From a virus, in IMG/VR virus record IMGVR_UViG_3300032397_000006, positions 40,086 through 104,085 of that record: a DNA stretch of 64,000 nt. One strand, given 5' to 3'. Numbering within the stretch: position 1 is the first letter of the stretch; the number at the start of each line of letters is the position of its first letter. Of this stretch, positions 1,837 through 54,611 are shown in pieces. The translations under genes were made by a program, and so were the position numbers. Under the pieces are notes generated by a model, which saw only the letters and a program-made list of their open reading frames with translations, was not told the DNA's origin and did no database searches.

Positions 1837-2007
1837 CTACTTCGCCGCGGACTCGCGTGCAACGCACGCACGGAATCGGACAACATCCTCGCTATCCTCG
1901 AGACTTGAATCCGCCCTGTCGTCGCTGTCGTCGCGCACGTAGTTTTTCAAGCGTTCAAGCATATCCTCGCGACTGAACGAGGCCTTTCTTGGTTTCTGAT
2001 CCTCCAT
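1837..2007 (-). CDS. Small acidic protein, unknown function
   Basis: A 56-residue protein starting MEDQKPRKASFSREDMLERL. Its ATG overlaps the TGA of the upstream kinase gene (TGATG), and a strong GGAGGG site lies just upstream, which favours this start over an in-frame ATG at 2055. It is rich in Asp, Glu, Arg and Ser, with no membrane segment or recognisable domain. It sits between two genes for GHKY-module proteins and is probably co-translated with them. Function cannot be assigned. It could be a small chaperone or scaffold-like partner, but nothing in the sequence shows that. Confidence 0.6.
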   Translation of the reverse strand: MEDQKPRKASFSREDMLERLKNYVRDDSDDRADSSLEDSEDVVRFRACVARESAAK

Positions 2008-3302
2008 CACACCCTCCGGAGCACGAGCTTTACAGCTCGCATAGACTTCATCCAACCACGGGCGCGCGCGATCAAATGTCGGCGTAATCCCGTCTGTTTG
2101 AATTTTCGCACATAGTTCGGATCAATAACAACGTCGGGCTGATTTTCTCCGCCCGCCCACACTAGGCGCGGTTTCGGGCCTGCGTTGTCAAATAGCGAGA
2201 ATTCATGAGCTCTACGCGCTATCTGCTCGAAATTCCCAGGAATGACGTGGTGCGCTTCCCGCACGAAATTGTCAGGCACGTAACGCCCGGTATTCCGCGC
2301 TCGGGAGCCCACGCGGGAGACAGCCTCAGCGAGCGGAATGTGTGGCATCACGAGGTGCACGTGGTAGCCCGCGGCTTTCAGTGCCTCGATTCGCCCAATG
2401 AATTTCTCCGTGTTTTTCCCCGTGCCGTCGAGAATCAAATTCTTGCGCTCTGCCACAGCGCGAGCTCGGACCTTTTCGCCGAGGTCGCTGGACTCCTCGT
2501 GTGCCATGGCCGCGGCATCTTTCGCCGTCACCGTCGATCCGTCCGCTGTGAGTCCGTACGCGAGAGCTCGCTGATACTCAGGTAGCTTTTCCTTACACGC
2601 GTCTGGATCGGACACGACGAAATCATTGTGGTCGCCCACTAGCGTGGCGAGGATCGAGCCCTTGCCGACGCCGGAGCCTCCCATGGTGACGATCGCCGTG
2701 GGCGTGCGATCGAGCGGCACGGGCTTCACGTGCTTGGTAAATGAATCCACGATCGCCGCGTGGAGCGCTTTACGCTCAGGCGTGTAATCCTTGAAGCGCA
2801 CCGGGCGAATACGACCGACCTCGATTGTGTGCGCGGTTTTCGTTTCCGCAGGAAGCCCGATCGAAGTCGCGGATTCGAGCCAAGCGCGATCGCGCTTGGT
2901 TGCGTGCGTTGCGCGCTCCGCGTCTGAAAATACGTGCACCACTTCGGCCGGGCTCACGATCGGGAAACTGCTGGGCGCCTCGCGACGCTGCACCGGCTTT
3001 GTGCCCGTGTGTCCGTAGTCGTAGTTCCAGCCGCCCTTACCATCTGGCGTGCGACGAATGTATTTATGCCCGGGCCGCTCCTCGCCCTTTTCCGACTTGA
3101 GCAAATCGAGCGGGATCACGTGCGCCTTTTGTGTCGGCTGCTGCTGCGCTTGCTGTCGAGGAAAGCGAGCTCGAAATCCGCGCTCCCTCGAGCGTCGGAT
3201 GTCCGAATATTTCTTAGGCTGCGCGAGCCCTTGTGCGAGGCCTCCGCGCAGCATATCGGCGAGGCGTGCCGTCTCGCGTGGATCCTTCGGCGGTAGGCTC
3301 AC
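2007..3302 (-). CDS. GHKY-module protein with zeta-toxin-like P-loop kinase domain
   Basis: About 431 residues from a GTG at 3302, which overlaps the upstream stop as GTGA and sits behind GGGGGA. An in-frame TTG at 3314 is less likely. A GHKYIRRTPDGKGGWNYDY module lies near residues 71-92. The C-terminal half is zeta-toxin/AAA-kinase-like: Walker A GGSGVGKGS near residue 206, then SDPD, a LILDGTGKN strand and an Arg-rich helix (SRVGSRARNTGRYV) with the spacing of zeta-family kinases. Zeta toxins phosphorylate UDP-N-acetylglucosamine and block cell-wall synthesis, and related domains occur in phage polyvalent proteins. Whether this one is toxic, or a nucleotide kinase used after ejection, cannot be told. 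No epsilon-like antitoxin is obvious nearby. The kinase fold assignment is strong and the substrate is inferred. Confidence 0.85.
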   Translation of the reverse strand: MSLPPKDPRETARLADMLRGGLAQGLAQPKKYSDIRRSRERGFRARFPRQQAQQQPTQKAHVIPLDLLKSEKGEERPGHKYIRRTPDGKGGWNYDYGHTGTKPVQRREAPSSFPIVSPAEVVHVFSDAERATHATKRDRAWLESATSIGLPAETKTAHTIEVGRIRPVRFKDYTPERKALHAAIVDSFTKHVKPVPLDRTPTAIVTMGGSGVGKGSILATLVGDHNDFVVSDPDACKEKLPEYQRALAYGLTADGSTVTAKDAAAMAHEESSDLGEKVRARAVAERKNLILDGTGKNTEKFIGRIEALKAAGYHVHLVMPHIPLAEAVSRVGSRARNTGRYVPDNFVREAHHVIPGNFEQIARRAHEFSLFDNAGPKPRLVWAGGENQPDVVIDPNYVRKFKQTGLRRHLIARARGWMKSMRAVKLVLRRV

Positions 3303-6300
3303 GTGTCCCCCCAAATGCGCTTTCCTGCGGTCGCGCCCTGATAAATGTGCGAGGCGATTTTGCCTGCACGGTGCTGATCTTCAATGTAACTCATGGAGTC
3401 TCGATAAATCGAGTCTGCATTTATTGCGCGCGCACTGTCTGGCATGCTGTCGCCCAACGCTACGTTCGGTTTGCCCCCTGGAAATGTCACCTCAGCGAAT
3501 ACGAAATCCGCGTGATCCTTGTGCGCTTCGTGGAATTTCGAGAAGTTTTTCGCGCCCTCTGCGTAGCTGTCGGCGAATACGCGTGCGTCGACCATACGCC
3601 CCGCGCCCACCGCACGTGCGACAGCGCCTGGCCAAGCGCGCTTTGGATCCGAGTGCACAAACATGAACGTGGGCTTTATCCCACGTTTCGCGCACTCAGA
3701 AATCAACCACTCGTTCTCCGTTGCGTTCTGCTCGCCTGCCGCGTCCCAGGTAGCAGCTACTGACTTCGGCAGATCAGGACGCGCGGCAAGGCCTACGCCT
3801 TTGCCCGCCGCACAGCCGCCGCTCGTGACCAAGATCTTACGGTCTCCCGGTGCCATTTTCGCGATCTCGTCAAGGCGCGTGATAAAGGCACGCTTCGCGA
3901 TCGCGTTCGCAGTCTGATGCAGCGCAGTGTTGTACAAGCTCCGCGCCTTGGCACGCTCGAGATTCATCGGCTCGCCTGGCTTATCCGGAGGCAAGTCGTC
4001 GCGCTTCCAGTCGGCGAGCAATGCCTTCGCGCCATCTGTTTCGAACACGTAATTGTTCTTTTTCGCGATCTCGCCGAAAGCCTGAGCTGTACCGTTCGGG
4101 TCGCGCTCGAATGCGTCCGCGAAACGCGTCTCGATCGCACGCTCCTCGTGCGTGAGGTTAGGCAGCTTCGGCACACCAGGCGGGGGCAGCACAGCATCGC
4201 CCGGAATGCCGACGCGTGCGGCTTTCTCGTTCGGCTTCTGCGGCGTGGCGCTCCTCGAGAGCGGCTTACGCTTGACGGCTTGGCCTTGCGCAGATCGCGC
4301 CGTGCGTGGTGGCGCGTTCGTGTAGAAATACTGCCAGCCGCCCTTACCATCTGGCTTGCGCCGCATGTACTTGTGGCCGGCGCGTTCTTGCCCCGGTACA
4401 AATGCCTTTTTCATCGCACGACGGCGCACGCAAAACGTCGTCTGCGATTCCTTCGCACCGGCTTCTACACTGCGCAGTTTCTTGTAGTAGTCCGGACGCT
4501 CGCACAGGTGATCGAGGGCGATATCCGCGGCTTTCTCGAGATCCTTTGTGTGCTCGAGCTCGACCTGCATTCCTGCCTGTAGATCGGTCGCTGTCCAGCG
4601 CGCATGCTCCCACTCCACACCGAGGCGCTTCGCAGCGCTCATAGCTGCATCGTGCGAAACACGAAGTGCTTTCGACTTCCGCGTAGTGTCAGTGGCGCAG
4701 CTCGCGCAAGGCACAACGGGATCGCAGCCAGAGCAGCTCTTTTTCAGCCCCTTTTTCGCCTTCGCGCGAGCTCGGGCCTTACGCCCCTTTGCGCGGTGCG
4801 ACCACTCGAGCGCCTTACCTTCTGGCAGCTTGCCCTCAGCTTCTGCAGCGAAAGCCCAACGGCGCTGCTTTTCGCTAAACGGGTGCTGCATCTTGCCCTT
4901 CGCGAAAGCTTCAAGCTCGTCGAGCGGATCGAGTGATTTCTTTTTCTCAGCTGCCGCCAGCTGCTTTGCTACGCCGTGCGCATAGCTTTCAGCCAGCAGA
5001 GAAGCTCCGCCAAATTCGACATCCTTTGGTGCCACGTGCGACATCTCGCGCACAAAGTGCTCGGCCTCCGCTTTGCTCGTGAGTGCTCCGCCCGCGTTGA
5101 TGGAGTATCCGCTCGGAATATGCGTGACGTGGTAAATGCCGTACTGCCCGCGCGTGATTCCGTAATCGCCGATCGCCGGCATGGACGTGACCTCAGGATC
5201 GCGGATTTCCTTACCGTCTTTATCGCGGATCGCCAAGTGCACGTCGACCGTGCGCAGCTTCTCAGGCTTGATGCCCGCGACCTTTTCAGCTGCGCGCATA
5301 GCGTCGCGGTGCTTCGCGACCTTTTCGAATGCAGATTCCATCGCCTCGTTCAGACCAGGCGCCGCTTTGCGTGAAAACACGTAGGGGTGGCTGTTCTCCC
5401 AAGACTCGCGCCGCGCCTTTGAAGCGACGTCGAGATCCTTACGCGCTTCGGAGAGCTGCTGACTGTGGGAGGCAGCCTCGCGCGCGTGCTCGTGTGGCGT
5501 ATCGCCCGCGACGACGTGTGAATAGACGTAGTGCCAGCCCCCGCGACCATCGGGCTTGCGAGTCAGGTATTTGTGCCCTGCAACCTCGTCGCCCTTCGCG
5601 GCCTTGCTGAGCTCGCCGAGATTGTCTAGCGCATCGCCACTCTTGAGAGCCAGCATTCCCCATTTTTGCGACTCGGCGAGGCCTGCGCGCATGCCTGAGA
5701 ACGCACCCTCAGACATACCTGCCCGCTCGAGAGCAGCATCTAAACGCTCGCGTGTGACCTTCGCATGCGCCTTGGCCTCAGCGTGCCGCGTCGAACCCGG
5801 AGTGTGCGCGTATTGGCTGGCGACACGCTCTGCGCTCGCGCGCTCGTGCTCGCGCGACGCTGCCACCACAGCGCGCTGTGCAAGTGGCGCCTTACGCTTC
5901 GCATGCGCGTCTGCGTAGTCGTAGCGCCAGCCGCCGTGCCCGTTCGGCTCGCGCTTGAGATACTTGTGGCTGGTTGCCTCGTCGCCCTTGGAGGCCTTGA
6001 TCAAAGGCAAGAGTGCATCGATCGCGTCGGCTGATTTATACGCGAGCGAAGTCGTCTTGAGGGCAACCCTACGCACGGTGCTAGGACTCGCGCGCAAACG
6101 GGACACGGTTTGCTTGTTCCAGAAATGCTCGATCTTACGTTTCGCTTTGCGCTTGGCTTTACGCGCAGCGAGCGCGCCCTTGATCTTTGCGTAGACGTAA
6201 CTCCAACCGCCCTTACCGTCAGGCTTGCGCTCCGTGTACTGATGCCCTGCCTGCTCCCCGCCGCGTACAGCATCAGCCTTCGCTGCTTTAATAAACAGCA

Positions 6301-7501
6301 CAGGTGCCGATTTCTCGACTTTTGCCGGACGCCACGCATCGGGCTTCGTGTCAGGCTTTACGCCGTCTGCATTCTTGTCGTAGGAGCTGTCTTTTATGTA
6401 GCCACGCGGCACGACGTCGAACGTGCAGTAGATGCCCATAATACCGATCGTGCTCCCCCAATTTTCGGTTGTGATCGGCGACGCTTTGTAGACGCTGTGC
6501 CGCTCAGTAAGGATCTTTTTTCGCATCTCTTTCACAGCACCCCACAGAGCATCTTTCTCGCCCTTGTTCGCGTAGGTGCTGTGGAACTTGATCGTCGCCT
6601 TAGCAGTCGGGCGAAATGTCTTCGGGTGCGTTTCGCGTATCACGCTAACGGTCCCTTTTTCGCCGAACGTCTTCGGTCCTTTCTCGATATCAGAGAGCAG
6701 CTTGTCTATTTCCGGTGGCGGCAGCTCGCCCTCTTTTTTAGAGGCCGCATGCTCCGCGCTACCCTCTGCGGGATATTCATAATCCCAGCCGCCCTTACCG
6801 TCTGGCTTGCGCGTAAGGTATTTGTGCCCCGGGCGCTCCTCGCCCTTGGCTAGAGATTTCTCGTATTTGAATTCCGCGGTCTCCCGCTCGTATTTCGGCA
6901 CTTGATAAGGATCTACGTGTTTCCACCGCCCCTCGTGCCATACGGGCTCGAGATTCTTTTTCTTGCGCGCAGCTGGTAAAGGCGCCGTAAATAGCGGCGT
7001 AGCCGGCTTGTGCTCATCGATTCGCGCTTCGGAATAGCCGCCAGGCAAGCGCCGCGTGCGCACATACGAAGGGTAATTGCCGAGACTGCGCGGCATGTCG
7101 AAATCAACGTTGTCGGAAGTCGCGCCGTCTCCCTCCAATAGGTGCCCGAAAACCTTAATCTCTTTCGAGTGCCAGCTCCCGCCCGCCGTGGCCAGGTACA
7201 CCTTACCGTTATGCGGCAGCAGAAAAGGCGCGCTGTGCCCCTCGGTCGCGGCTTGCTCGATCGCTTGCTTGAGCACGCTCGGATCAAAGGCGCCCACTTG
7301 TTTCTTGTGATCGGCGGGAGGCTTGTAGCTGTATTTCCATCCGCCTTTACCATCTGGCGAGCGCAGCAGATATTTGTGCCCCTCGACCTCTACGCCCTTC
7401 GCCGCTTTCTCGAGTAGCGCTAGGGGATCGAGCTCAGGCTGAGCTCTCACAAGGCTCAAGCCGATTGCGTGCTTTCGAAGTGCTGAGATCGCATCAGTCA
7501 T
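3299..7501 (-). CDS. Giant polyvalent protein with six GHKY modules, DUF5661-like and second zeta-like kinase domains
   Basis: A 1400-residue protein. The ATG at 7501 overlaps the upstream TGA (ATGA), so I prefer it to the in-frame ATG at 7540. Six copies of the GHKY/PDGKGGW module lie near residues 35-56, 218-240, 413-433, 505-526, 635-657 and 1036-1056 and divide the chain into segments. Between modules 5 and 6 there is a Cys cluster (CSGCDPVVPCASC, near 923-935) and a DUF5661-like segment near 971-1008 (VELEHTKDLEKAADIALDHL). The C-terminus holds a P-loop kinase-like domain with Walker A TSGGCAAGKG near 1225, similar in layout to the zeta-like domain of the next gene. Several segments are rich in Lys, Arg and Ala. 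The architecture resembles phage polyvalent proteins carried in virions. Location in the particle is inferred from neighbours only. Confidence 0.88.
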   Translation of the reverse strand: MTDAISALRKHAIGLSLVRAQPELDPLALLEKAAKGVEVEGHKYLLRSPDGKGGWKYSYKPPADHKKQVGAFDPSVLKQAIEQAATEGHSAPFLLPHNGKVYLATAGGSWHSKEIKVFGHLLEGDGATSDNVDFDMPRSLGNYPSYVRTRRLPGGYSEARIDEHKPATPLFTAPLPAARKKKNLEPVWHEGRWKHVDPYQVPKYERETAEFKYEKSLAKGEERPGHKYLTRKPDGKGGWDYEYPAEGSAEHAASKKEGELPPPEIDKLLSDIEKGPKTFGEKGTVSVIRETHPKTFRPTAKATIKFHSTYANKGEKDALWGAVKEMRKKILTERHSVYKASPITTENWGSTIGIMGIYCTFDVVPRGYIKDSSYDKNADGVKPDTKPDAWRPAKVEKSAPVLFIKAAKADAVRGGEQAGHQYTERKPDGKGGWSYVYAKIKGALAARKAKRKAKRKIEHFWNKQTVSRLRASPSTVRRVALKTTSLAYKSADAIDALLPLIKASKGDEATSHKYLKREPNGHGGWRYDYADAHAKRKAPLAQRAVVAASREHERASAERVASQYAHTPGSTRHAEAKAHAKVTRERLDAALERAGMSEGAFSGMRAGLAESQKWGMLALKSGDALDNLGELSKAAKGDEVAGHKYLTRKPDGRGGWHYVYSHVVAGDTPHEHAREAASHSQQLSEARKDLDVASKARRESWENSHPYVFSRKAAPGLNEAMESAFEKVAKHRDAMRAAEKVAGIKPEKLRTVDVHLAIRDKDGKEIRDPEVTSMPAIGDYGITRGQYGIYHVTHIPSGYSINAGGALTSKAEAEHFVREMSHVAPKDVEFGGASLLAESYAHGVAKQLAAAEKKKSLDPLDELEAFAKGKMQHPFSEKQRRWAFAAEAEGKLPEGKALEWSHRAKGRKARARAKAKKGLKKSCSGCDPVVPCASCATDTTRKSKALRVSHDAAMSAAKRLGVEWEHARWTATDLQAGMQVELEHTKDLEKAADIALDHLCERPDYYKKLRSVEAGAKESQTTFCVRRRAMKKAFVPGQERAGHKYMRRKPDGKGGWQYFYTNAPPRTARSAQGQAVKRKPLSRSATPQKPNEKAARVGIPGDAVLPPPGVPKLPNLTHEERAIETRFADAFERDPNGTAQAFGEIAKKNNYVFETDGAKALLADWKRDDLPPDKPGEPMNLERAKARSLYNTALHQTANAIAKRAFITRLDEIAKMAPGDRKILVTSGGCAAGKGVGLAARPDLPKSVAATWDAAGEQNATENEWLISECAKRGIKPTFMFVHSDPKRAWPGAVARAVGAGRMVDARVFADSYAEGAKNFSKFHEAHKDHADFVFAEVTFPGGKPNVALGDSMPDSARAINADSIYRDSMSYIEDQHRAGKIASHIYQGATAGKRIWGDT

Positions 7502-10500
7502 CGCTTCCCCGTTTCCACAGCGTCCCGGATCGTAGCCCATTCTCGCACGTTGAAGCGTATCGAAGGCTTCTGCGGCGCCGCCCCATGGAAAGCGTATTTA
7601 CCACTGTTCCGGCGTGCGAGGGCCTTCCTTCGGCGCCTGGAGGCCTTCACTTCCTTTTCGGTCTGCACGGTCCCGTAGATGCCCTCGAAATCGGGGGACT
7701 CCTGCGAAGGGCTGTAGCGCTGCACGACGTAGGATTTCACGAGAGCTCCGTGGTTGCTCGGGTCGGTCACGAACGCGGCGAAATCTTCGAACGCGACCGC
7801 GCGCACTTGCCCCAAGAATCGAGGATCGTCGTAGTGCGCTTGGTAAGCCTGCACCGCGGCACCGAGATTCGAAAACCCGAGCATGCACTTCTGTTCGTCT
7901 ACGTGCACGAAGTCGGGCGACTTGAGCTGATCGATCACGAACACGTAAGGCGCCATCTTGTCGGGCCCGACGTAGACGTCCACGTGATCGCCATCCGTGC
8001 CTTGCGTGCGCCGCACATAGCCGTAGTCGTGCACCATCTTTGTTTTGCCTGCGCGCTTCGCGTGTGCGTCGTACCAGTGCCGGTAAGATCCTGCCTGGTT
8101 TTCGACGCTCACCTTTAGCCCGCGGAAATCCCGACGCCTGTGCAGCTTGCGCGACTTCTCGAGCGGAGCTTTCAAGCTGTCGATCACTTCTGTAATCGCA
8201 TCGTCGCTGTCCTCAATATGCGCGCCGAAACGCGCGAAAGCCTGCCTGATCGCAGGTTCAATCATGCGCCGCCCCCCGGGCTCGCTCGCGAGCTCTGCGT
8301 ACTCCTCTCGATATTCAGCCAGCGCATTGATCGCGTGCGACACTGCTTGCTTTCTGCCCTCAGGCGAAGCAATAGGCTGCAGCTCGTAGGAGCGTTGATC
8401 CTCTTTTGATAGAGGCGCGTCGTAGGTCACGGTGCCGTGCCGAAAAGCAGGATGCTTTCCAATCGAGGAAAATCCTTTAGGCGCTGTGAACGTACCGATC
8501 GGCCTATTCTGCATACCGTACACGTAGTGCCAGCCTCCCTTACCATCAGGGTGACGCTCCGCGTAAAGGTGCCCCGCTTGCTCCTCGCCCTTTGCCGCTT
8601 TACGCAACACGAGCAGCGCCTTCAATACAGCATCCTGAAACGCGTGGCGCTTATCCCAATCGAAATCGAGCGCGAATTTCGACGGTCTGCCGGGTGTCTC
8701 GACGCGCGTATAGAAATCCTCAGCTGCGGGCTTATATTCGTAGCCCTTGCCTTTATGGTGCTCGCCCGCGTGTCCGCCCGTCGTGAAATGCATCTCATGC
8801 GCTCCGCGGTGCGAATGAATTACTGAGTCTTGATTAAACTGCTTTCCGAGCGCGCGCATAACACCAAACTCGCTAGGCGAATCGTGGTGCACCATGAAGG
8901 CATTACTTTTCTGCGGCTTCGCGCTCTCGTGATGCACGATAAAGCTCGCCTCACGCGAACCATAATGCCCCTCGACCTCGGTATAGCGGAGCTTGCGCTT
9001 TTTCAGCTCGCCTCGCAGGCGTTCGTGTCGCGCTTTGAATTCCGCGTGATCCTCAGACATGTCCTTTTCGCGCGCGTCGTTTCCGTTGCGACCTGCGCTG
9101 ATAATCGAATAGGTGCCGTGCTCGAGCAGATCGTCCAGCTGCGGACGCGTGAGACGCACCTCGCCCGCGGGTTTGCGTGGAGGTCTGTCGCTCGGGTGCC
9201 CGGGCAGATCATAGCCGTAGCGCCAGCCTCCCTTACCGTCTGGCGTGCGGCGCACGTACTTGTGCCCCGGACGCTCGCCTTCGCTGCCCTCGCGCGCTTT
9301 ACGGATCGCTTCGCCCCACGGAATGATATGCATACTTTTCTCCGTACCCTCTGCGCGGGCTTTGACGGCTGCGTAAGTGTCAGGGTGCACCGCAGGCGCA
9401 TCGCCATCGTCGCGCGTCGCGTTGCCCTTCATGTCCACGCCCAGCCACATTCGCCAGTGTCGATCAAGCTGCCCGATCGAGGAAATCACTCCGGGCTTAG
9501 CGAGCAGTTCCTTTGCCATCTTTTCGCGCTCGGCCTTCGGCAGCTTGCTCGCGTGATACTGCTCGACCTCGAGTTTCTGTTGCTGCTCTGCGGCAACCTT
9601 GTCCTGCGCTGCGCGCTTCGCTTGCGCCGCTTCGCGTTCGGCCTGCGCGGCTGCCTCGCGTGCTGGAGCGCCCGCTTCCCACTCCGCTTGCTTTTGCTTC
9701 TCTGCAGCCTTCGCGGATTTCTTTTCAGCCTCTCGCCGCGCTTCGCGTTCGGCCTCGACCTTCTCTGTCTCGTGCGGCAACGAAATACGATGGCGCTTGA
9801 AAGCATCCGGATCCGGATCGCCGAGCTCCCCTTGTGCTTCCTGAATCGCTGCTGCGGGGACCTGCAAATCATCGCGTGCCATCACGAGCGTTTCTTCTTC
9901 GCCCTCGTACGCACCTAGATCAGCCTCGTGCTCCGCGTGAAACAAGACGGCTTCAACAGGCACGTCGAGCGTGACCACGGCGCCGCGCGTTGCGTACTGC
10001 GTGCCGAAGTCGTGCGCGCTTTCGTGGTCGCTGGTCCAGCTCGACAAGCTGCGCACTGCAACGGGAACGGTGCCGCCCTGCGCTTGCTTCGCTTGCTCGA
10101 CAAGGGCCTTACCCTGGTCGTGCGCAATGCCGCGATGAATGCGCACTGTGCGCTCGCCCTTGGCAGCGAATAGCGCCTGCGTCGCTGCGTACTGCCTGAT
10201 CGCCATCGCTTCGCAGTCGTCGATTTCCTTTTTCGAGATACGGGACGCACGCGTAACCGCTTCTGCAAACGTACGCTTTTCGTCTGCGCTTGCGCGACCT
10301 CGAGCGATCTTGCCGATCAACGCGAGTTGTGGCGTGGTTTTCGTCATCCATTCATTTCGCCAAGCGTTACGCACGTGTGACTCGTCGGAATGATCGGCGA
10401 AAGCATCATCCGTGTGGGAAATGCCTTTCATGGACGCGGCGAGCGCTGCGATTTTCTTTTTATGCGCAGGCGACATGCCGAGATCAGGAGATACCGCGTA

Positions 10501-12750
10501 AGTGTTCTGCGCTGCCGGCGTGCGCACGCCCTTACTGTCCTCGTAGAAGTAGTTATGCCCGCCCTTACCATCGGGCTCACGGCGAATGTATTTGTGTCCC
10601 GGGCGCTCGCTGCCTTCGCTCTTTTTCAGTTTGAATCTGGCGAGCACTTCTGGCTTGCGCATTACGCGCTCGATCGGACGCCCAAAACGGTCAGTATCTT
10701 CTCCCTCCTCGGATGATTGCGAGCCCAGCAGGAGGGCGTACTTTCCTTGATAGGCTTTTGCGTGATCTAATGCCCGCGAGACGTCGCTACCGTCTCGGCT
10801 ACCTAGATCAATTGCGCTAGTCCCGTCGAGAACATCATCCGTAGGTTCACCATCCTCCCAGCGGCGGGACTCTGCTAAAATAGAACCGACCTCAGGTGGA
10901 TCTGCGTCGTCAACAATGCGCAAGCCGATCGTATGAAATTCAGGCGCATATTCTTTCAGTATCGACTTCACGGCGTCTATGTGCAACGGCGAGATGTCAG
11001 TTCTCTCGCGCTGCTTGAGTCTATCTTCGAATTGGAGGTCGGAGAATTGCCGCGTAGGCGCGAGCTCGCGCACTTTCGCAACATGCTCGCGCAGCTGATC
11101 GAGCGACATCGCGCCTTCATCGAAAGTCGCGAATAAATCGAGGCTCAAGTCGAGCGCGAGGTGCGGCTCAATCTGAAAATCAATTGCGCGTAGCCCTTTG
11201 ATCTTGGTGTTGAGCTCTGCTGCTGCACGCTTACCGATCGGCTGCACGTAGCCGATATCGATCATCTTCGGTTTATCGCCCTCGATCACGAATGAGTTTT
11301 CCTTGAATTCAGGCGCTGTGAATTCGTGCTCGCGCAGCACCTTCGCAATCGTCTGGTGCGCCTCCCACAAGCCTTTCGAACCCCACCCCCCGGGTCTGCC
11401 CTCGACCTCAGCGCGCACGAGCGTGTCAGTGTCCGCGTCGTATTTTTCGAACGAGGGCACGAGGTCTTTCGTGCGCGGATCCTTGCTCAGCACCTCGAGA
11501 GCGTGCGCTTCATTCTTGCGCGAGCTCACGCCGCGGCGACCGACCTTGTACGCGGAGGCTCCATCCGTGAACACGATGCCCTCAGCGCCCGCCCCTAGCA
11601 GGCTCAGGGTGCCCGCTCTCGCGCCAGCCTTCACGGCACGTGCCGCAGCCTGCGGGAGCTCCGCGTGGACGGCGGCAGGCGCGTCCTCGAGTAACTTTGC
11701 GACGTCGACCTGTTCCGGGCGCTCCAACTTTTTCAGCGCTTCGGCCAGATCCTGATCAATGACCAGCTTACCGAAGGCGTCGGCATCCTTGCGGAGCGCG
11801 TGCGACATATCGATCAACTCGAGTGCGAATTTGTCCCGTTGCGCGTCTTGCTTCGGCGGGAACTTCAACACGTGTCGTAGCTGCGCTTCCCACTCATATT
11901 CGAGATTCGCGCCGCGAGGCGTGTAACGCTGTCCATTGCGTGCGTACAGACTCTCAAGTCCGTCGAGATCACTCTGCTGCGGAGACAGATGCCGGTAGCC
12001 GTCGTAGGGCTCCGCCTTGCCCGCCTTGCCTACGTCGAACATGAAGGCCTTACCGTCGTCATCGACACCGATCTGCGGCGTGTCGCCGAGCACGTAGCCG
12101 GCTTTGTGCATCGCGAGCACCGTATCGTGGGCCGCGTCGAGCTGCTCTAGCGTGAGCTTGTCGGGAATGCCGAGATAGCGCTTGATCGTGTAGCCGCGCC
12201 CGTCGTGCTCCACGAAGCGCTCAGGCAGTAGCCCGGGCACTCCGGCATCGCGGAGAGCTTGCTGTGTCTCGTGCTGCTCGCGTGCGACCTCGACAGCTTT
12301 CTGCGCTGTCTTGTACCAGGGGTTTGACGGCTGATAGGGGACAACCGTGCTGACTTTGACAACGTTGTCCCCTGACTTGAAAACAAGACCGTCGTCGCCC
12401 TTACCAAGAAACTCGGCAGTACCTCCGGTCACGGCGTCGATATCCGGATCTCCGCTTTTCTTATCGCTGACTACGCGGCCTTCTAAATCATCCTTGTACA
12501 TAGCAAGCGCGTCGTGCGAAATCTTGTGCCCGTAGCCAGGCACCGTCGCGTGAAAGCCGACGCTCGCGTGCGTGTCGTCGGAATCAAATACTTTCCATTT
12601 GAGCGTGCCGCGCATTCCGAGCTTTTCGTGCGGCGTAATGTCGATCTCATGCCCCGCTAAATAGCGATAGAGCCAGCCGCCCTTACCATCAGGATGGCGC
12701 TCGAGATACTTGTGCCCCTCTACGGTTTCGCCCTTGGCTGCCTTCTGCAT
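7498..12750 (-). CDS. Giant polyvalent protein: kinase-like x2, ADP-ribosyltransferase-like, DUF3293-like and InPase-like domains with four GHKY modules
   Basis: A 1750-residue protein starting MQKAAKGETV. GHKY/PDGKGGW modules lie near residues 5-29, 714-736, 1154-1177 and 1387-1409. Two protein-kinase-like lobes are visible. The first has LGKGDDGLVF...VVKVS at 115-134 and a later DDDGKAFMFDVGKAG. The second has LLGAGAEGIVF...YKV near 381-400 and KPKMIDIGY near 490. Both lack a clear HRD motif, so they may be degenerate. Residues about 860-960 fit an ADP-ribosyltransferase: IHRG, SLSSWTSDHESAHDF, then GEEETLVM as the ExE turn. An Ala/Glu/Lys coiled coil follows (about 990-1070), then a DUF3293-like region (about 1207-1354) and an inorganic-pyrophosphatase-like (InPase) domain with DGDHVDVYVGP (about 1544-1671). 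Such domain strings are typical of polyvalent phage proteins thought to be ejected with DNA. Activities are not proven. Confidence 0.88.
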   Translation of the reverse strand: MQKAAKGETVEGHKYLERHPDGKGGWLYRYLAGHEIDITPHEKLGMRGTLKWKVFDSDDTHASVGFHATVPGYGHKISHDALAMYKDDLEGRVVSDKKSGDPDIDAVTGGTAEFLGKGDDGLVFKSGDNVVKVSTVVPYQPSNPWYKTAQKAVEVAREQHETQQALRDAGVPGLLPERFVEHDGRGYTIKRYLGIPDKLTLEQLDAAHDTVLAMHKAGYVLGDTPQIGVDDDGKAFMFDVGKAGKAEPYDGYRHLSPQQSDLDGLESLYARNGQRYTPRGANLEYEWEAQLRHVLKFPPKQDAQRDKFALELIDMSHALRKDADAFGKLVIDQDLAEALKKLERPEQVDVAKLLEDAPAAVHAELPQAAARAVKAGARAGTLSLLGAGAEGIVFTDGASAYKVGRRGVSSRKNEAHALEVLSKDPRTKDLVPSFEKYDADTDTLVRAEVEGRPGGWGSKGLWEAHQTIAKVLREHEFTAPEFKENSFVIEGDKPKMIDIGYVQPIGKRAAAELNTKIKGLRAIDFQIEPHLALDLSLDLFATFDEGAMSLDQLREHVAKVRELAPTRQFSDLQFEDRLKQRERTDISPLHIDAVKSILKEYAPEFHTIGLRIVDDADPPEVGSILAESRRWEDGEPTDDVLDGTSAIDLGSRDGSDVSRALDHAKAYQGKYALLLGSQSSEEGEDTDRFGRPIERVMRKPEVLARFKLKKSEGSERPGHKYIRREPDGKGGHNYFYEDSKGVRTPAAQNTYAVSPDLGMSPAHKKKIAALAASMKGISHTDDAFADHSDESHVRNAWRNEWMTKTTPQLALIGKIARGRASADEKRTFAEAVTRASRISKKEIDDCEAMAIRQYAATQALFAAKGERTVRIHRGIAHDQGKALVEQAKQAQGGTVPVAVRSLSSWTSDHESAHDFGTQYATRGAVVTLDVPVEAVLFHAEHEADLGAYEGEEETLVMARDDLQVPAAAIQEAQGELGDPDPDAFKRHRISLPHETEKVEAEREARREAEKKSAKAAEKQKQAEWEAGAPAREAAAQAEREAAQAKRAAQDKVAAEQQQKLEVEQYHASKLPKAEREKMAKELLAKPGVISSIGQLDRHWRMWLGVDMKGNATRDDGDAPAVHPDTYAAVKARAEGTEKSMHIIPWGEAIRKAREGSEGERPGHKYVRRTPDGKGGWRYGYDLPGHPSDRPPRKPAGEVRLTRPQLDDLLEHGTYSIISAGRNGNDAREKDMSEDHAEFKARHERLRGELKKRKLRYTEVEGHYGSREASFIVHHESAKPQKSNAFMVHHDSPSEFGVMRALGKQFNQDSVIHSHRGAHEMHFTTGGHAGEHHKGKGYEYKPAAEDFYTRVETPGRPSKFALDFDWDKRHAFQDAVLKALLVLRKAAKGEEQAGHLYAERHPDGKGGWHYVYGMQNRPIGTFTAPKGFSSIGKHPAFRHGTVTYDAPLSKEDQRSYELQPIASPEGRKQAVSHAINALAEYREEYAELASEPGGRRMIEPAIRQAFARFGAHIEDSDDAITEVIDSLKAPLEKSRKLHRRRDFRGLKVSVENQAGSYRHWYDAHAKRAGKTKMVHDYGYVRRTQGTDGDHVDVYVGPDKMAPYVFVIDQLKSPDFVHVDEQKCMLGFSNLGAAVQAYQAHYDDPRFLGQVRAVAFEDFAAFVTDPSNHGALVKSYVVQRYSPSQESPDFEGIYGTVQTEKEVKASRRRRKALARRNSGKYAFHGAAPQKPSIRFNVREWATIRDAVETGKR

Positions 12751-12765
12751 GGGCGAGAGCGTAGC

Positions 12766-12802
12766 AAAAGGCCTGACACGCGTGCGGTTTGAATGTCAGG
12801 CC
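12766..12802 (-). terminator. Rho-independent-type hairpin upstream of the giant-protein operon
   Basis: A perfect 9-bp inverted repeat, GGCCTGACA at 12770-12778 and TGTCAGGCC at 12794-12802, with a 15-nt loop. Read leftward it is followed by TTTTGC. It would end or attenuate transcripts from the 13-24 kb accessory block before the giant-protein genes that begin at 12750. The U-run is short, so attenuation or an mRNA-stabilising hairpin is also possible. Confidence 0.6.
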
Positions 12803-12814
12803 CGGGGGAAGCTG

Positions 12815-13114
12815 TTATGTAACCTCAACTGCCCGGCAATTAAAACAGCACACCGAGAACACCTGAGGGGCGGGCGCAACCCGCGCGCATAAACCCGGAG
12901 TAGGTTTTGCCCTAATGGCACAGCGCTTATATTGCCTGGTGTGTATGGATGCGGCAAACCGCGTTTCAGCGCGCGGGCGCAAGTGGCAAGTGACGTGGCG
13001 CGGCTGTGGGCTGATCTCGCAGTGCTGCGGCGTAGCTCGGTCTATTTTCGAAGGTGGCGGCAAAGCTCCCGCGAAAACGAGAAAGCAAATCAGCAGTGCG
13101 AAGATCAGCGCCAC
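12815..13114 (-). CDS. Possible small secreted protein (weak call)
   Basis: A 99-codon open frame from GTG at 13114. Its first 20 residues (ALLICFLVFAGALPPPS) look like a signal peptide or membrane anchor. The rest is Cys-, Arg- and Pro-rich without a recognisable domain. A second open frame, about 55 codons, overlaps it on the same strand, and two plus-strand frames (12915-13121, 12932-13360) also exist here, so coding evidence is weak. The nested, signal-bearing layout is loosely reminiscent of spanin pairs, but no lipobox is seen. The 12803-13214 stretch otherwise holds nothing I recognise and may include the promoter for the giant-protein operon. Confidence 0.3.
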   Translation of the reverse strand: MALIFALLICFLVFAGALPPPSKIDRATPQHCEISPQPRHVTCHLRPRAETRFAASIHTRQYKRCAIRAKPTPGLCARVAPAPQVFSVCCFNCRAVEVT

Positions 13115-24582: not shown

Positions 24583-25992
24583 TTAACTCTCGACGCTGTG
24601 TCTGTGAGCGGCGTGCCTCTCGGCTGCCTGCCGGCTGCCGGTCTCTGCGATCACGCTGCCTGCGCGGCGCACTTGCCAGAGCCCGTCCGATCCACGCTGT
24701 ACCGTGTGCTGCCCGTGCGTCGCCACGACGGGCCCTGTAGCGCTCGCTGGATCGCGCACGGGCAAAGGGGGTGGCGTACCGCCAGCCTTGCCCGGAAGGG
24801 GCGGAGGCTTGGCGGCGTCGGCCTGTTTCGGCAACGGCGGAGGCACGCCCGCGGCACGCGTCGGAGGTGTCTCGCGCTTGCGCTGATCCACAGCCGCGAG
24901 CGCTGCCGCTTGCGCCGCAGCACGCTTTGCCTTCGCACCTCGAGGCTTCGCGCCCTTCGCGCCCTGCAACGAGGCCAACAGCTTCGCGTGCTGCGCGAGC
25001 TGCGCGCCTTGCTGCGCGAGCTGCGCCTGTAGCTTGCCCTCCCTGCGCGTCGATTTCGCATGCTCCGCGGTCAGTGCTGCGTGTCCATTCGCTTGCGCTG
25101 CTGCGTGCTCTCGCAATTGCGAGCGTGCCGCTTTCGCTGCTCTCTGATCGCCTGAGCGTTTCGCCTGCACGAGTGCACTGCGCGCGATCTTGTGCTCGCG
25201 CACGAGCGCTTGCGTCGAGGCCTGATGCTGCGCGTGCTGTTGCGCGAGCTGACCGTGCAACGCCTTAAGCTGAACCTGAGTCTGTTTATGGGCTGCGATC
25301 AAATGCTGTTGCGCGATCGCGTGCGCCTGCATTTGTTTCGCATTACGTTTCTTCGACTCTGCGAGCCGTCCCGACGCGGTGCGCTTATGTGCCTGCAGTT
25401 TTTTCGCGAACGCTTTCTGATGCGAAAGCAACGCGCCCGCAGAGATTCGCTTCTGCTGCTCGAGTCTCTTACTGTGTGCGCGAACCGTAAGCTTGAGCTT
25501 TTTCTTGAAGGCCTTCTGATGCGCGAGGAGCTTCTCTGTGTGCTGCTTTTTCTGCTGCTCAAGTTTCTGCTTAGGCGTGAGCTTTTTCGCCTTACTGCGC
25601 GCAGGCACGTGCAACGGCATGCGGGCAAGCTTGCTCCACTTACCGCCAGCTTTACGACCTACCCATTTCTTACCGTCGAAACGAAACTCGTGCCGCTGGC
25701 CGCGCGACTTGACGTGAAAGGTGCTCGCCTTTCCGGAGTGCTCGATCTTGTGCACCATGCCCGCGGCACCCGTCCGCATCGCAACGGCGGTACCTACGCC
25801 TAGTCGTCGAGGAGCGCCCTGCGGCGCTGCGTAGACGTAATTCCAACCACCCTTACCGTCTGCTTTACGCGTAAGGTATTTATGACCAGGCATTTCCTGC
25901 CCGGGCACAGCAGCTTTACGCAAGGGCTCCGCAAAAGACAGCACGTCGAAGTGCGTCACGTCTTGTGCAGTCAACGGAATTACCAGGAGCAT
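24583..25992 (-). CDS. Long coiled-coil, Pro-rich protein with one GHKY module
   Basis: 469 residues. A GHKYLTRKADGKGGWNYVY module lies near residues 36-54. It is followed by a short beta-rich domain (FHVKSRGQRHEFRFDGKKWV) and a Lys/Gln/His/Ala-rich coiled coil of about 230 residues. A Pro-rich segment (PPPLPKQ, PPPLPGK, PPPLPVR) and a final small domain (LWQVRRAGSVIAETGS...) close the chain. The module links it to the giant proteins left of 12.75 kb although 12 kb of other genes lie between. The length and regularity of the coil suggest a fibrous virion or scaffold element. Its start overlaps the upstream stop (TAATG). Confidence 0.75.
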   Translation of the reverse strand: MLLVIPLTAQDVTHFDVLSFAEPLRKAAVPGQEMPGHKYLTRKADGKGGWNYVYAAPQGAPRRLGVGTAVAMRTGAAGMVHKIEHSGKASTFHVKSRGQRHEFRFDGKKWVGRKAGGKWSKLARMPLHVPARSKAKKLTPKQKLEQQKKQHTEKLLAHQKAFKKKLKLTVRAHSKRLEQQKRISAGALLSHQKAFAKKLQAHKRTASGRLAESKKRNAKQMQAHAIAQQHLIAAHKQTQVQLKALHGQLAQQHAQHQASTQALVREHKIARSALVQAKRSGDQRAAKAARSQLREHAAAQANGHAALTAEHAKSTRREGKLQAQLAQQGAQLAQHAKLLASLQGAKGAKPRGAKAKRAAAQAAALAAVDQRKRETPPTRAAGVPPPLPKQADAAKPPPLPGKAGGTPPPLPVRDPASATGPVVATHGQHTVQRGSDGLWQVRRAGSVIAETGSRQAAERHAAHRHSVES

Positions 25993-29072: not shown

Positions 29073-29252
29073 TCATTTCCAGAACGCGACAGCCTGGCAG
29101 CTCGTGCAGAAGTAGGGACCTCGACCGTCCCGACTCTTAGGCGGGATCACCTTGCTCCGGCAGCACGGGGATATGTTCCGAGCGATCGCTATGCGTCTCT
29201 GCTTCTCAGCTGCCTGCGCGGCAACATCGTCTTGCTGCTCCACACTTTGCAT
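29073..29252 (-). CDS. 59-residue zinc-ribbon protein
   Basis: MQSVEQQDDVAAQAAEKQRR begins a helix, followed by ISPCCRSKVIPPKSRDGRGP and YFCTSCQAVAFWK, giving two Cys pairs of a zinc ribbon. An AAGG site lies 7 bases before the ATG, and the frame starts 30 bp after the preceding gene ends. Below usual length cut-offs but convincing. A DNA- or RNA-binding role is possible. Confidence 0.6.
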   Translation of the reverse strand: MQSVEQQDDVAAQAAEKQRRIAIARNISPCCRSKVIPPKSRDGRGPYFCTSCQAVAFWK

Positions 29253-29282
29253 GCGCCTTATTACCCTTATCGCTGCGTGCAG

Positions 29283-29489
29283 TCAAACAACACGATCTGC
29301 GCACGCGGGAGTGTCGACGCGCAGGCTCCAAACAATTTCGCTCGTCCAGTAGCAGCGCACCTCGAGCGACTCTGCATTGGCAGCAAACGATCGCAAGCAT
29401 GCTTTCGCCGCAGAAAGCGTCGCGAAAGGTGCCGCTGCTACGTAGCCGTCTACCTCGGCTATATAGCGATATTCGATCAGCTGGCCCAT
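29283..29489 (-). CDS. Hypothetical protein
   Basis: 68 residues: MGQLIEYRYIAEVDGYVAAA, a helix with SAAKACLRSF, then ESLEVRCYWTSEIVWSLRVD. A beta-alpha-beta-beta layout of a small compact domain. No motif recognised. The overlapping frame at 29206-29538 on the same strand looks like a shadow. Confidence 0.5.
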   Translation of the reverse strand: MGQLIEYRYIAEVDGYVAAAPFATLSAAKACLRSFAANAESLEVRCYWTSEIVWSLRVDTPACADRVV

Positions 29490-29519
29490 GGGGGATAAAC
29501 ATAGCAGGCCAACCGGGCT

Positions 29520-29708
29520 TTATCCAACGCAACGCCAACGGCGCGACACCCTATCGAACGAAACACGCCCTGATTTTTTCAGCCGGCGAAGCGCGAGATC
29601 GATTTCGTTGTCCGCAAATGGGCCCACCTCCAATCGAACACGACTTAGCGTCGTGCCCAATTTTCCAGCTTCCTTGATCACCCGTGCGACCCGTTCCTCG
29701 TCTAGCAT
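29520..29708 (-). CDS. Small winged-helix-like protein
   Basis: 62 residues: MLDEERVARVIKEAGKLGTT, SRVRLEVGPFADNEIDLALR and RLKKSGRVSFDRVSRRW. Three helices followed by a basic beta-hairpin are the pattern of a winged helix DNA-binding domain. GGAGTGATAA precedes the ATG. It could be a local repressor. The 94 bp between it and the MazG-like gene contain no other frame of interest. Confidence 0.5.
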   Translation of the reverse strand: MLDEERVARVIKEAGKLGTTLSRVRLEVGPFADNEIDLALRRLKKSGRVSFDRVSRRWRCVG

Positions 29709-29802
29709 TTATCACTCCGTAACGTAACTGCGCGCGGCACCGAGCACACACGGCCAAACGCGCGGTGTGTACCAGGCGCCGCGTACGGCGCGCAAGCATT
29801 CC

Positions 29803-30171
29803 TCAGCCTAGCCGCTTCCCGCCGTGCCGATACGATCGCGTCGCATTAAACGCGATCTTCTCAGCGAGCACAGGAGCAAGGATCAAACCTCGCGAAACGG
29901 CTGTGCTTGCTACGCGTAGCAGGACGTCCGCCAATTCAGAGCGCACCCCCTCAGGACCGCGATCAGACGACAACCGATCTGCAAATCCGAGCTCGCGATA
30001 CGCCTCGAGCGCTTCGCTACACTCGGAATGCAACAGCGCCACCTGATCTCCGAACGTAAGCGGCTGATCGTACCATCCGCGCGCACGAGCTTCCTCGTAG
30101 ACAAGGATCGCAAATCGATCGAACGCTTCTCCGAATTCAAGTGCCGCTGCTAGCGTGGCCTCCGAAATCAC
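29803..30171 (-). CDS. MazG-like nucleotide pyrophosphohydrolase
   Basis: 122 residues from GTG at 30171 (GTGA overlap). LLHSECSEALEAYRE gives the ExxE metal motif of the MazG/HisE all-alpha NTP-PPase superfamily, and SELADVLLRVASTAVSRG the second ExxD-type motif. The C-terminal NATRSYRHGGKRLG also matches family endings. Family enzymes hydrolyse non-canonical NTPs or ppGpp-related alarmones. In phages they are thought to rewire nucleotide pools or stringent signalling. It is coupled to the AT-hook gene. Confidence 0.8.
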   Translation of the reverse strand: MISEATLAAALEFGEAFDRFAILVYEEARARGWYDQPLTFGDQVALLHSECSEALEAYRELGFADRLSSDRGPEGVRSELADVLLRVASTAVSRGLILAPVLAEKIAFNATRSYRHGGKRLG

Positions 30172-30803
30172 GCAGACGGGCTGCCGTGGAAGTCGACGAA
30201 GCCCCCCTCAAATTTCAGACGAAGCCCACCACCTTCGATCAACTCGACAGCGGCACCTTCGGCACGCAGCCTGTGCCCGCCAAGGGCCATCATGAATCCG
30301 GGGACCGCGATCGACGTCGCAATCGACGCCTTCGCGGGCTTTTCGACACGCACCTTAGGTGCGGCAGCCTTAGCCGGGGACGCGGGAGACGCCTCGATTT
30401 TCGCGGGAGCCTCGGCTGTTCGCAACTTCGGCGGACGTCCGCGACGCTTCGGTGCGGCAGCCGCAAGCTCGGAATGATGCCCGTTGCCGTTGCTGTGCCC
30501 GTTGCCGTTAGAAGCTGCGGCAGCCTTCGGCGGACGTCCGCGACGCTTCGGCGCGACAGCCGCAGGCGCAGCGGACGCTGCAGACGCAGCCGCCTTCGGA
30601 GGCCTGCCCCGACGCTTCGGCGCCGCGGCCCCATCGTCCGAAACAGCGGGTAGCTTTTGCTGCGCCGCAAGGCCCAGCGCAAACATACGCACCTGCACTG
30701 CGGTCGGCGTGCGACCAAGAGTGCTTGCGATCTGCTCATAAGACTGTCCGGCCGCGAGCCCTTCGCGCACCGCAGCATCATCCGTTGAATTCCACTCAGC
30801 CAT
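30168..30803 (-). CDS. AT-hook DNA-binding protein with SANT/Myb-like N-terminus
   Basis: 211 residues. The N-terminal 45 residues (WNSTDDAAVREGLAAGQSYE, QIASTLGRTPTAVQVRM) form a SANT/Myb-like or HTH unit. Three AT-hooks follow, each with PKRRGRPPK, separated by Ala- or Asn/Gly/His-rich linkers, then a Pro/Ala/Lys linker and a compact C-terminal domain (MALGGHRLRAEGAAVELIEG). AT-hooks bind the minor groove of AT-rich DNA. HMGA-like AT-hook factors are well known in myxobacteria (CarD). It may bend host or phage DNA or regulate transcription. The GGACG/CGTCC hairpin near 30830 lies in its leader. Confidence 0.8.
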   Translation of the reverse strand: MAEWNSTDDAAVREGLAAGQSYEQIASTLGRTPTAVQVRMFALGLAAQQKLPAVSDDGAAAPKRRGRPPKAAASAASAAPAAVAPKRRGRPPKAAAASNGNGHSNGNGHHSELAAAAPKRRGRPPKLRTAEAPAKIEASPASPAKAAAPKVRVEKPAKASIATSIAVPGFMMALGGHRLRAEGAAVELIEGGGLRLKFEGGFVDFHGSPSA

Positions 30804-30950
30804 TTTTTCGTCCCCTTATCCGCAACTCAGGGACGATCCCCCGTCCGGAAGGTTGCGCTAGCGCGAAGCTCGATAATTCAGCGCGCCGTGTATTCCTATC
30901 ACGTTAACTGCGGCCCTAATGAAAATCAAGCTACGCGTGTCTTTTGCGCG

Positions 30951-33861: not shown

Positions 33862-34414
33862 GACGACACGTCTGTAGCAAAGTGCGGAGTACGTCTGAGT
33901 CCCGTGCCGCAAGCACGCTCGCAGCGGCGTCGTAGCAATGCTCGCGCTTCCCCCGAGGTACCCGCGCGACCTCCACATCAATGCCGGACATGCGAGCAGC
34001 TACACCGCGGGCGACGTCTTCTTTCGAGGCACTCTTATTCGAGGCCACTGCGAGCTTGATAGCCTGCGGAGAAATCGAAACGATCGGCAACGAAAAGCGC
34101 TCGGCTTGTGCGGCAATTACTCCCCACGACATCGCCATTTTCGCAGCCACGCTCGAGCTCCGCGGAAAGCTCATAGCCTCGAGACACAAAGCAAGCGGCG
34201 TAAAGGCCTCGATCAATTCGCGGAGCAACGCTGCTATTTCTCGCGCCCTTCGCACGTTGTCATGCGCTGCGTACGTGTTCTGTTTTTTGTCGGCTTTCTC
34301 TGTGCTGATCAGACCAGCCAACACCGCGCGAGGCTGCACGTCAAATAGGTCCACGACAGCCCACCCGAAATTGGCAAACCCCGGATCGATGCCTATGACA
34401 CGCAGCGCTTTCAT
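33854..34414 (-). CDS. ruvC: RuvC-like Holliday junction resolvase
   Basis: 186 residues. RVIGIDPGFANFGWAVVD supplies the first catalytic Asp, LCLEAMSF the Glu, and EHCYDAAASVLAARD the C-terminal acidic pair of RuvC-family nucleases. Length matches the family. It cuts four-way junctions made by recombination-dependent replication and could also trim branched DNA before packaging. The ATG overlaps the stop of the Mre11-Rad50 fusion gene (ATGA), placing the resolvase directly after end-processing enzymes. Confidence 0.9.
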   Translation of the reverse strand: MKALRVIGIDPGFANFGWAVVDLFDVQPRAVLAGLISTEKADKKQNTYAAHDNVRRAREIAALLRELIEAFTPLALCLEAMSFPRSSSVAAKMAMSWGVIAAQAERFSLPIVSISPQAIKLAVASNKSASKEDVARGVAARMSGIDVEVARVPRGKREHCYDAAASVLAARDSDVLRTLLQTCRRD

Positions 34415-54143: not shown

Positions 54144-54611
54144 TCAACCGAGTGAGGCGATTACCTCGAGTTGCCGCGGCGAGGGCGCTTTGCCTGACCT
54201 GATCTGCCCCGCTACCGATTCCGCGAACATGCCAGGAAATCCTGGGCGCGCTGACATGCCGTCAAGCCTCTCGAGCAGCGATGCGAACCGCTCGCGCATC
54301 GCTGCCGCCTTGGCTGCCTTCCGGGCCTTCCTGAGCTCGCGTTCGTGTTTCTTCTGCCAGTCCTCGACTCGCTTCTGCATGCCTGCACCGCCCGCGCTCA
54401 GGGCGCAGTCGCACCCCACCTTGAAGCGAGCTCCACACGCACCCTGCAGCTGCGCGGCATACATGATCGAGGCGCCGCAGTAGTCGCACGATCCACCAGG
54501 CTTGATCGGCTCACCAGGCGCCGCCTGAAACTTGTGCTCGCTCACACCGAGAAATCTGTACGGGGCCTTGCCTAGCCCCGCCTTTTCGAACTTGTGCACC
54601 ATTTCGTCCAT
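54144..54611 (-). CDS. Cys-rich protein of the FEKAGLGKAPYRF family
   Basis: 155 residues. VHKFEKAGLGKAPYRFLGVS then GGSCDYCGASIMYAAQLQGA and FKVGCDCALS is the pattern of a small family found in phages and plasmids, with a zinc-ribbon-like Cys set. The C-terminal half is helical and basic (KKHERELRKARKAAKAAAMR). Role unknown; nucleic acid binding is likely. It is the largest of the palindrome-controlled genes. An ATG four codons later is an alternative start. Confidence 0.65.
   Translation of the reverse strand: MDEMVHKFEKAGLGKAPYRFLGVSEHKFQAAPGEPIKPGGSCDYCGASIMYAAQLQGACGARFKVGCDCALSAGGAGMQKRVEDWQKKHERELRKARKAAKAAAMRERFASLLERLDGMSARPGFPGMFAESVAGQIRSGKAPSPRQLEVIASLG

Follow-up and report, generated by a model that had tools for sequence, protein, structure and literature searches.

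Among the closest described systems are the phage polyvalent proteins, of which ART, kinase-type and InPase domains as well as DarA relatives are named parts, and for which Iyer et al. proposed that built-in peptidase domains separate the chain into working units (Iyer 2017, PMC5512222). In phage P1, DarA and DdrB are processed head proteins, with processing before packaging having been reported (PMC5512222). Early effectors that are packaged and injected are described in T4, including the ART in Alt and the anti-restriction IPs (PMC12373910). Cleavage next to a lysine is exemplified by the HK97 capsid protein, which is cut at K103/S104 (PMC10275583).

The protein under study, P0001, is encoded by a 1750-residue ORF on the minus strand (7498..12750, ATG at 12750 and stop at 7498) of a 64,000-nucleotide stretch of viral DNA, hereafter the window, which spans positions 40086-104085 of a virus record 104,085 bases long; the ORF named in the original prediction was confirmed. 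Like the polyvalent proteins of Iyer et al., P0001 unites several enzyme domains of unrelated kinds in a single chain encoded close to head genes, comprising a DRAT-type ART, a SAM-lyase-family domain, DarA_C and InPase, and its gene lies between TerL and the portal. It departs from that set in that its kinase lobes do not match Kinase-PolyVal and in that its joints bear putative cleavage sites of a separate head protease; the searches detected neither an MPTase nor an assemblin-like peptidase domain in it. P0001 is a new phage polyvalent protein of a known kind, and its domain mixing alone is not surprising. What is new here is the Φ-x-K-[A/S/G] joint upstream of the GHKY modules.

From its sequence, we are inclined to regard P0001 as a virion polyprotein, predicted to yield effector units on cleavage by the head protease; its packaging, cleavage and ejection we infer as follows. 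The precursor would be incorporated into the procapsid as one of its internal head proteins and be cut there by an S78-like prohead protease, after the Lys of Φ-x-K|[A/S], at sites that precede every GHKY module and flank InPase on either side. The pieces thus freed would be the kinase-like pair with region X, GHKY-ART, GHKY-SAM-lyase-family, GHKY-DarA_C and the pyrophosphatase, with each GHKY piece beginning with the same basic module of ~19 residues. Ejected with the DNA, they would act on early host defences and host proteins, the proposed actions being DarA-linked anti-restriction, SAM binding or depletion, and ADP-ribosylation. In T4, the internal proteins and Alt are cleaved by the head protease; single effectors carry short N-terminal targeting tags there, whereas P0001 would be a polyprotein with repeated internal modules. 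P0001 shares with P1 DarA and DdrB a DarA C-terminal domain and a head-gene context, but DarA_C takes up only ~52 of its 1750 residues and, unlike in P1 DarA, processing is predicted, at a different type of site; DarA-N was not found in P0001.

Gene order around P0001

In gene direction, the 104-kb phage contig runs from TerL through P0001 to the portal, with the MCP further along. First comes the large terminase (TerL, 28735-27143, minus strand), near which the module scan located a protein with a GHKY module and a long Ala/Lys/Gln-rich helical part (24583..25992, minus). P0001 is directly followed by P0002 (3299..7540, minus), a protein of 1413 residues with six GHKY modules and DUF5661, by a GHKY protein with a zeta-toxin-like kinase (2007..3314, minus; PF06414, E 1.7e-24) and by the GHKY-bearing P0004 (3..1775, minus), which adjoins the portal gene and extends beyond the window edge. 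Past that edge are found the portal (L010:18129-19877), a MuF-like protein, an S78-like protease, a scaffold candidate and an SU10-type capsid protein, the last assigned by a match to PF17236. The P0001 and P0002 genes share 43 bases and those for P0002 and the zeta protein share 16, an arrangement resembling a head operon whose genes are translated together.

The original prediction took P0001 for a polyvalent protein that could act on entry, and such action is probable in view of its gene position, DarA_C, InPase and the modules shared with portal-side proteins. The head-gene position, DarA_C and the modules common to portal-fused and portal-neighbour proteins argue against the proposal that P0001 is a late product that works inside the infected cell and is left out of the virion, which we hold to be very improbable.

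Several other features of the region were recorded. The C-terminal part of P0002 contains, by eye, a P-loop-like GGCAAGKG stretch resembling a second zeta-type kinase and adjoins the zeta-toxin gene; the stretch gave no Pfam match. The MuF-like head protein (L010:9150-10859, minus; record 29150-30859), for which the family match is weak, has a zinc-metallopeptidase-type HExxH near its C-terminus, kept as HEIGHS, HEIGHT or HEFGHA across L010, L012 and L013. Genes for a DNA methyltransferase, a dATP/dGTP diphosphohydrolase-type protein and an HD-domain protein (L010:10889-11812, 11828-12307 and 12313-12954) lie within the head region and suggest that the DNA could be modified or purine-swapped. 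Elsewhere in the window (34411-37332, minus), a 973-residue ORF joins SbcD-like (1-242) and SbcC-like (341-971) parts, which are usually encoded by two genes.

Domains and relatives of P0001

Two kinase-like lobes were delimited by motifs read by eye and by their likeness to each other, K1 at residues ~110-345 (11716..12423, minus) and K2 at ~375-545 (11116..11628, minus), followed by region X (546-707; 10630..11115, minus), which gave no convincing family match. Gly-rich loops (GKGDDGLVF and GAGAEGIVF), lysines of the invariant type (K132 and K402) and DFG-like motifs (D239-V-G and D498-I-G) were recognised in K1 and K2, respectively. Their catalytic loops, D223...Q226 and E481...N485, depart by eye from the normal HxD...N spacing, in agreement with the description of the lobes as degenerate in the original prediction. 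The shuffle similarity between K1 and K2 (z 5.4) does not settle their homology, since K2 and the SAM segment, an unrelated pair, reached z 6.2 by chance. Neither lobe was matched to a kinase in Pfam, PHROG or NCBIfam profile searches, and Kinase-PolyVal (PF18762) was rejected as their identity, with no Pfam match and an hhalign probability under 1%. A two-row AlphaFold model of K1/K2 was unusable (pLDDT 36), and its best Foldseek matches were kinases at E 0.56 and worse. The two proposed lobes are supported by their motifs and mutual likeness, and a kinase fold is likely but, in contrast to the other domains, unproven.

The ART-like domain occupies residues ~780-970 (9841..10413, minus). DRAT (PF07357) matched it at E 2.3e-6, scoring 27.5 bits on the segment against a cut-off of 25 and 22.5 bits, below the cut-off, on the whole protein, and the expected residues follow in order by eye (R873, S904-W-T-S907 and E951-x-E953), so that the R...STS...ExE pattern originally described for an ART holds. 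Structure predictions of P0001 segments were poor because few relatives are available: a single-sequence AlphaFold model of residues 731-1380 reached a pLDDT of 45, too low for use, with NarE as the top Foldseek match at E 0.55; at such E values, neither this match nor those of the K1/K2 model to kinases were taken as evidence. Residues 995-1075 (9526..9768, minus), a charged Ala/Glu/Lys-rich stretch that is helical in the low-confidence model, probably form a coiled coil.

The next domain, at residues ~1206-1360 (8671..9135, minus), had been described as DUF3293-like, a likeness that is real but scored below the cut-off (20.3 bits against 25); it is better assigned to S-AdoMet_lyase (PF23780, E 2.5e-8), with 34.4 bits on the same segment against a cut-off of 28. 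When aligned with eight phage SAMases, P0001 was found to keep G1261, Y1263, Q1307 and D1308, among which G1261, Y1263 and Q1307 are the ligand-site Gly, Tyr and Gln of the SAM lyase. P0001 resembles T3 SAMase and Svi3-3 in this above-threshold match and in these residues, but differs in that the domain is fused into a polyvalent chain and has Gln at the essential Glu position: the catalytic Glu (Svi3-3 E69, T3 E68), present in 8/8 of the aligned phage SAMases, falls on Q1280, which is placed in a gapped loop of the alignment with E1275 and E1267 nearby. E1267 had been the first guess for the catalytic Glu and was dropped after the eight-sequence alignment. Svi3-3 E69Q loses lyase activity while still binding SAM (PMC7877911), so the domain in P0001 may bind SAM without cleaving it. 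Membership of the family is clear from the profile, and lyase activity appears doubtful from the alignment, unless E1267 or E1275 substitutes or the loop is misaligned. SAM-AMP lyases of phages belong to the same superfamily (PMC12255297), and such a function is a possible alternative for this domain. Iyer et al. 2017 (PMC5512222) make no mention of a 'SAM lyase'. If delivered in the virion, a SAM-lyase-family domain would act earlier than T3 SAMase, which must first be made.

The Gln at the position of T3 E68 and Svi3-3 E69, a substitution that in E69Q abolishes lyase activity and leaves SAM binding (PMC7877911), together with the abnormal catalytic loops that K1 and K2 show by eye, could also be accommodated by a P0001 that mainly fills the head or coats DNA without catalysis, its degenerate kinases and Gln-substituted SAM lyase being pseudo-enzymes that bind ligands or partners. 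Against this, the ART retains its R, S and ExE, the InPase profile score is strong, and the SAM-lyase family match retains G, Y, Q and D, with Q1280 lying in a gapped loop close to E1275 and E1267. We judge a mainly non-catalytic role to be improbable, and continue to favour the release of effector units from a polyprotein.

The DarA C-terminal domain follows at residues 1409-1460 (8371..8526, minus; PF18789, E 9.4e-8), overlapping and then extending past the fourth GHKY module; it scored 32.9 bits on the segment against a cut-off of 27 and 26.3, just below, on the whole protein, with NCBIfam anti_RE_DarA matching at E 3.2e-6. The polyvalent-protein InPase domain lies at residues 1538-1660 (7771..8139, minus), where PF18823 matched at E 2.1e-33 and bore out the InPase-like domain of the original prediction, in which the SAM-lyase-family and DarA_C domains and the GHKY-linked putative sites had not appeared.

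No close relative of the whole of P0001 was found in the search of viral contigs, and, among the matches listed, phage records align with P0001 at InPase only. Queries with the kinase region and the ART-plus-SAM region returned no relatives, the ART query against plasmids gave four chance-level matches only, and no kinase or ART relative emerged from pattern searches. The combination of kinase and ART in one chain, originally thought unusual, loses its oddity because both are established polyvalent parts (PMC5512222) and because in a different phage (L028) a chain with a GHKY module joins Kinase-PolyVal to an R-STS-ExE-like C-terminus, an ART by eye; the combination is probably not unique to P0001.

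The GHKY module and the Φ-x-K joint

The four GHKY modules originally counted in P0001 were all recovered by the module scan on the minus strand, at residues 12-30 (12661..12717), 718-736 (10543..10599), 1162-1180 (9211..9267) and 1393-1411 (8518..8574). The module, for which the name GHKY was not found in the literature searched, has the consensus KAxKGxExxGHKYxxRxPDGKGGWxYxY and is probably a basic hairpin of ~19 residues. Its 13 copies in the record are spread over five proteins, and their mean identity of 64% in DNA and 61% in protein marks them as old rather than recent repeats.

A scan of viral contigs yielded 22 loci matching the module, and genome_contigs only two. Its neighbours elsewhere comprise Kinase-PolyVal with NUDIX, ART-PolyVal, InPase, portal, GNAT, zeta toxin and CCA-adding enzyme, and in a related phage group (L024) the portal protein itself carries it, next to InPase. 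In another phage contig (L014:1813-3291), it is fused to a CCA-adding tRNA nucleotidyltransferase with an HD domain.

Putative cleavage sites were located in P0001 by motif scan, all on the minus strand: MQK|A at the N-terminus (12739..12750), LKK|S (708-711; 10618..10629), IRK|A (1149-1152; 9295..9306), LRK|A (1382-1385; 8596..8607) and, on the N-side and C-side of InPase, LEK|S (1530-1533; 8152..8163) and LVK|S (1670-1673; 7732..7743). In the homologous phage G001, InPase is likewise flanked by LAK|A on its N-side and LVK|A on its C-side. Cuts at the joints would divide P0001 into pieces of ~4-710, 711-1151, 1152-1384, 1385-1532, 1533-1672 and 1673-1750, a list that disregards three sites inside K1 as well as those at 1072 and 1377.

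Upstream of the modules of this phage, [LIVMF]xK[ASG] was found within 22 residues in 13/13 cases (null mean 1.7, maximum 6 in 2000 draws), a count that overstates independence as the 13 modules are paralogous; among foreign modules, it was found in 19/22 (null mean 3.1, maximum 9). The narrower [LIVMF]xK[AS] was in excess in P0001 (11 against 4.7 expected, P 0.008), in the portal neighbour P0004 (5 against 1.3, P 0.009), in the scaffold (4 against 0.9, P 0.011) and in the prohead-protease candidate (7 against 0.66, a count reached in 0/2000 shuffles), while P0002 had 10 against 5.1 expected. No excess was seen in 20 pooled non-head genes (11 against 13.2 expected). Of the 11 sites in P0001, K1 contains three (125, 216 and 242), and the surplus outside assigned domains (8/11, P 0.09) is not significant.

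The putative head-protease site borne by the GHKY modules suggests that P0001 is divided into pieces and does not act as a single protein. The strong linkage of site and module could also mean that the site is structural, and three foreign modules do without it; on such grounds P0001 might be packaged and injected whole as one multi-enzyme, with K[ASG] a conserved part of GHKY and the module serving for docking or retention. The same tetrapeptide is, however, enriched in the scaffold and the protease and kept at the MCP N-terminus, all of which lack the module, and in P0001 it flanks InPase away from any module. Moreover, two of the three exceptions (L014 and L018_10240) have the module at or adjoining the protein N-terminus, so that no cut would be needed. 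Injection of an intact chain is on balance unlikely, and the cut polyprotein remains our preferred reading.

More tentatively, and with less than even confidence, Φ-x-K|[A/S/G] plus GHKY may be a general 'cut and start' joint, through which effector arrays become virion polyproteins diced by the capsid-maturation protease as the head is assembled, and may mark packaged effectors across many uncultivated phages. Should the head protease indeed cut at the joint, phages would have, besides built-in peptidases, a second solution in which cutting is coupled to assembly of the capsid. Injected effectors could then be traced through the 19-residue module, independent of their effector domains, and the module would help to name their mature pieces.

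Head protease, scaffold and capsid protein

The S78-like prohead protease candidate (L010:7230-8030) was assigned from gene order and from NDNHS/GFSVEG motifs read by eye, its match to PF04586 being sub-threshold (E 0.01, 16.4 bits against a cut-off of 21). The homologous protease of G001, 56% identical over 200 residues, is also below the cut-off for the S78 profile (E 0.23, 12.0 bits). Four of the seven sites in the candidate lie inside its presumed catalytic part. In G001, the scaffold has seven [LIVMF]xK[AS] sites against 1.0 expected, and the protease six against 1.0 with the slightly wider [ASG] motif.

The MCP N-terminus, ELRKALYAGNAVTDPGVAPGEGFPLRPQSLE, is nearly repeated at the protease C-terminus, VLAKSLSAGSAVTDPGVAPGEGFPLRRQSLE, over ~28 residues that start at the site (LRKA and LAKS), and NLRKALFAG is kept at the same N-terminal place in the MCP of G001. 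The putative cut at the MCP N-terminus, between Lys and a small residue, is reminiscent of HK97; this phage differs in having a separate scaffold protein, an SU10-type MCP (PF17236) and similar sites across its effector proteins too. The stretch shared by the capsid N-terminus and the protease C-terminus (L010:6331-7221 and L010:4865-6262) is AVTDPGVAPGEGFPLR, and G001 clearly keeps the capsid copy only.

The P0001 InPase is matched by the portal of Pseudomonas phage Pa193 at residues 636-732. Residues 529-765 of that portal gave no density (PMC11042391), a gap compatible with an effector tail that is freed or flexible.

Outside the head cluster (54147-54611 of the window, minus), a protein of 155 residues bears three ΦxK[AS] sites against 0.6 expected and, judged by these sites, might be another packaged protein.
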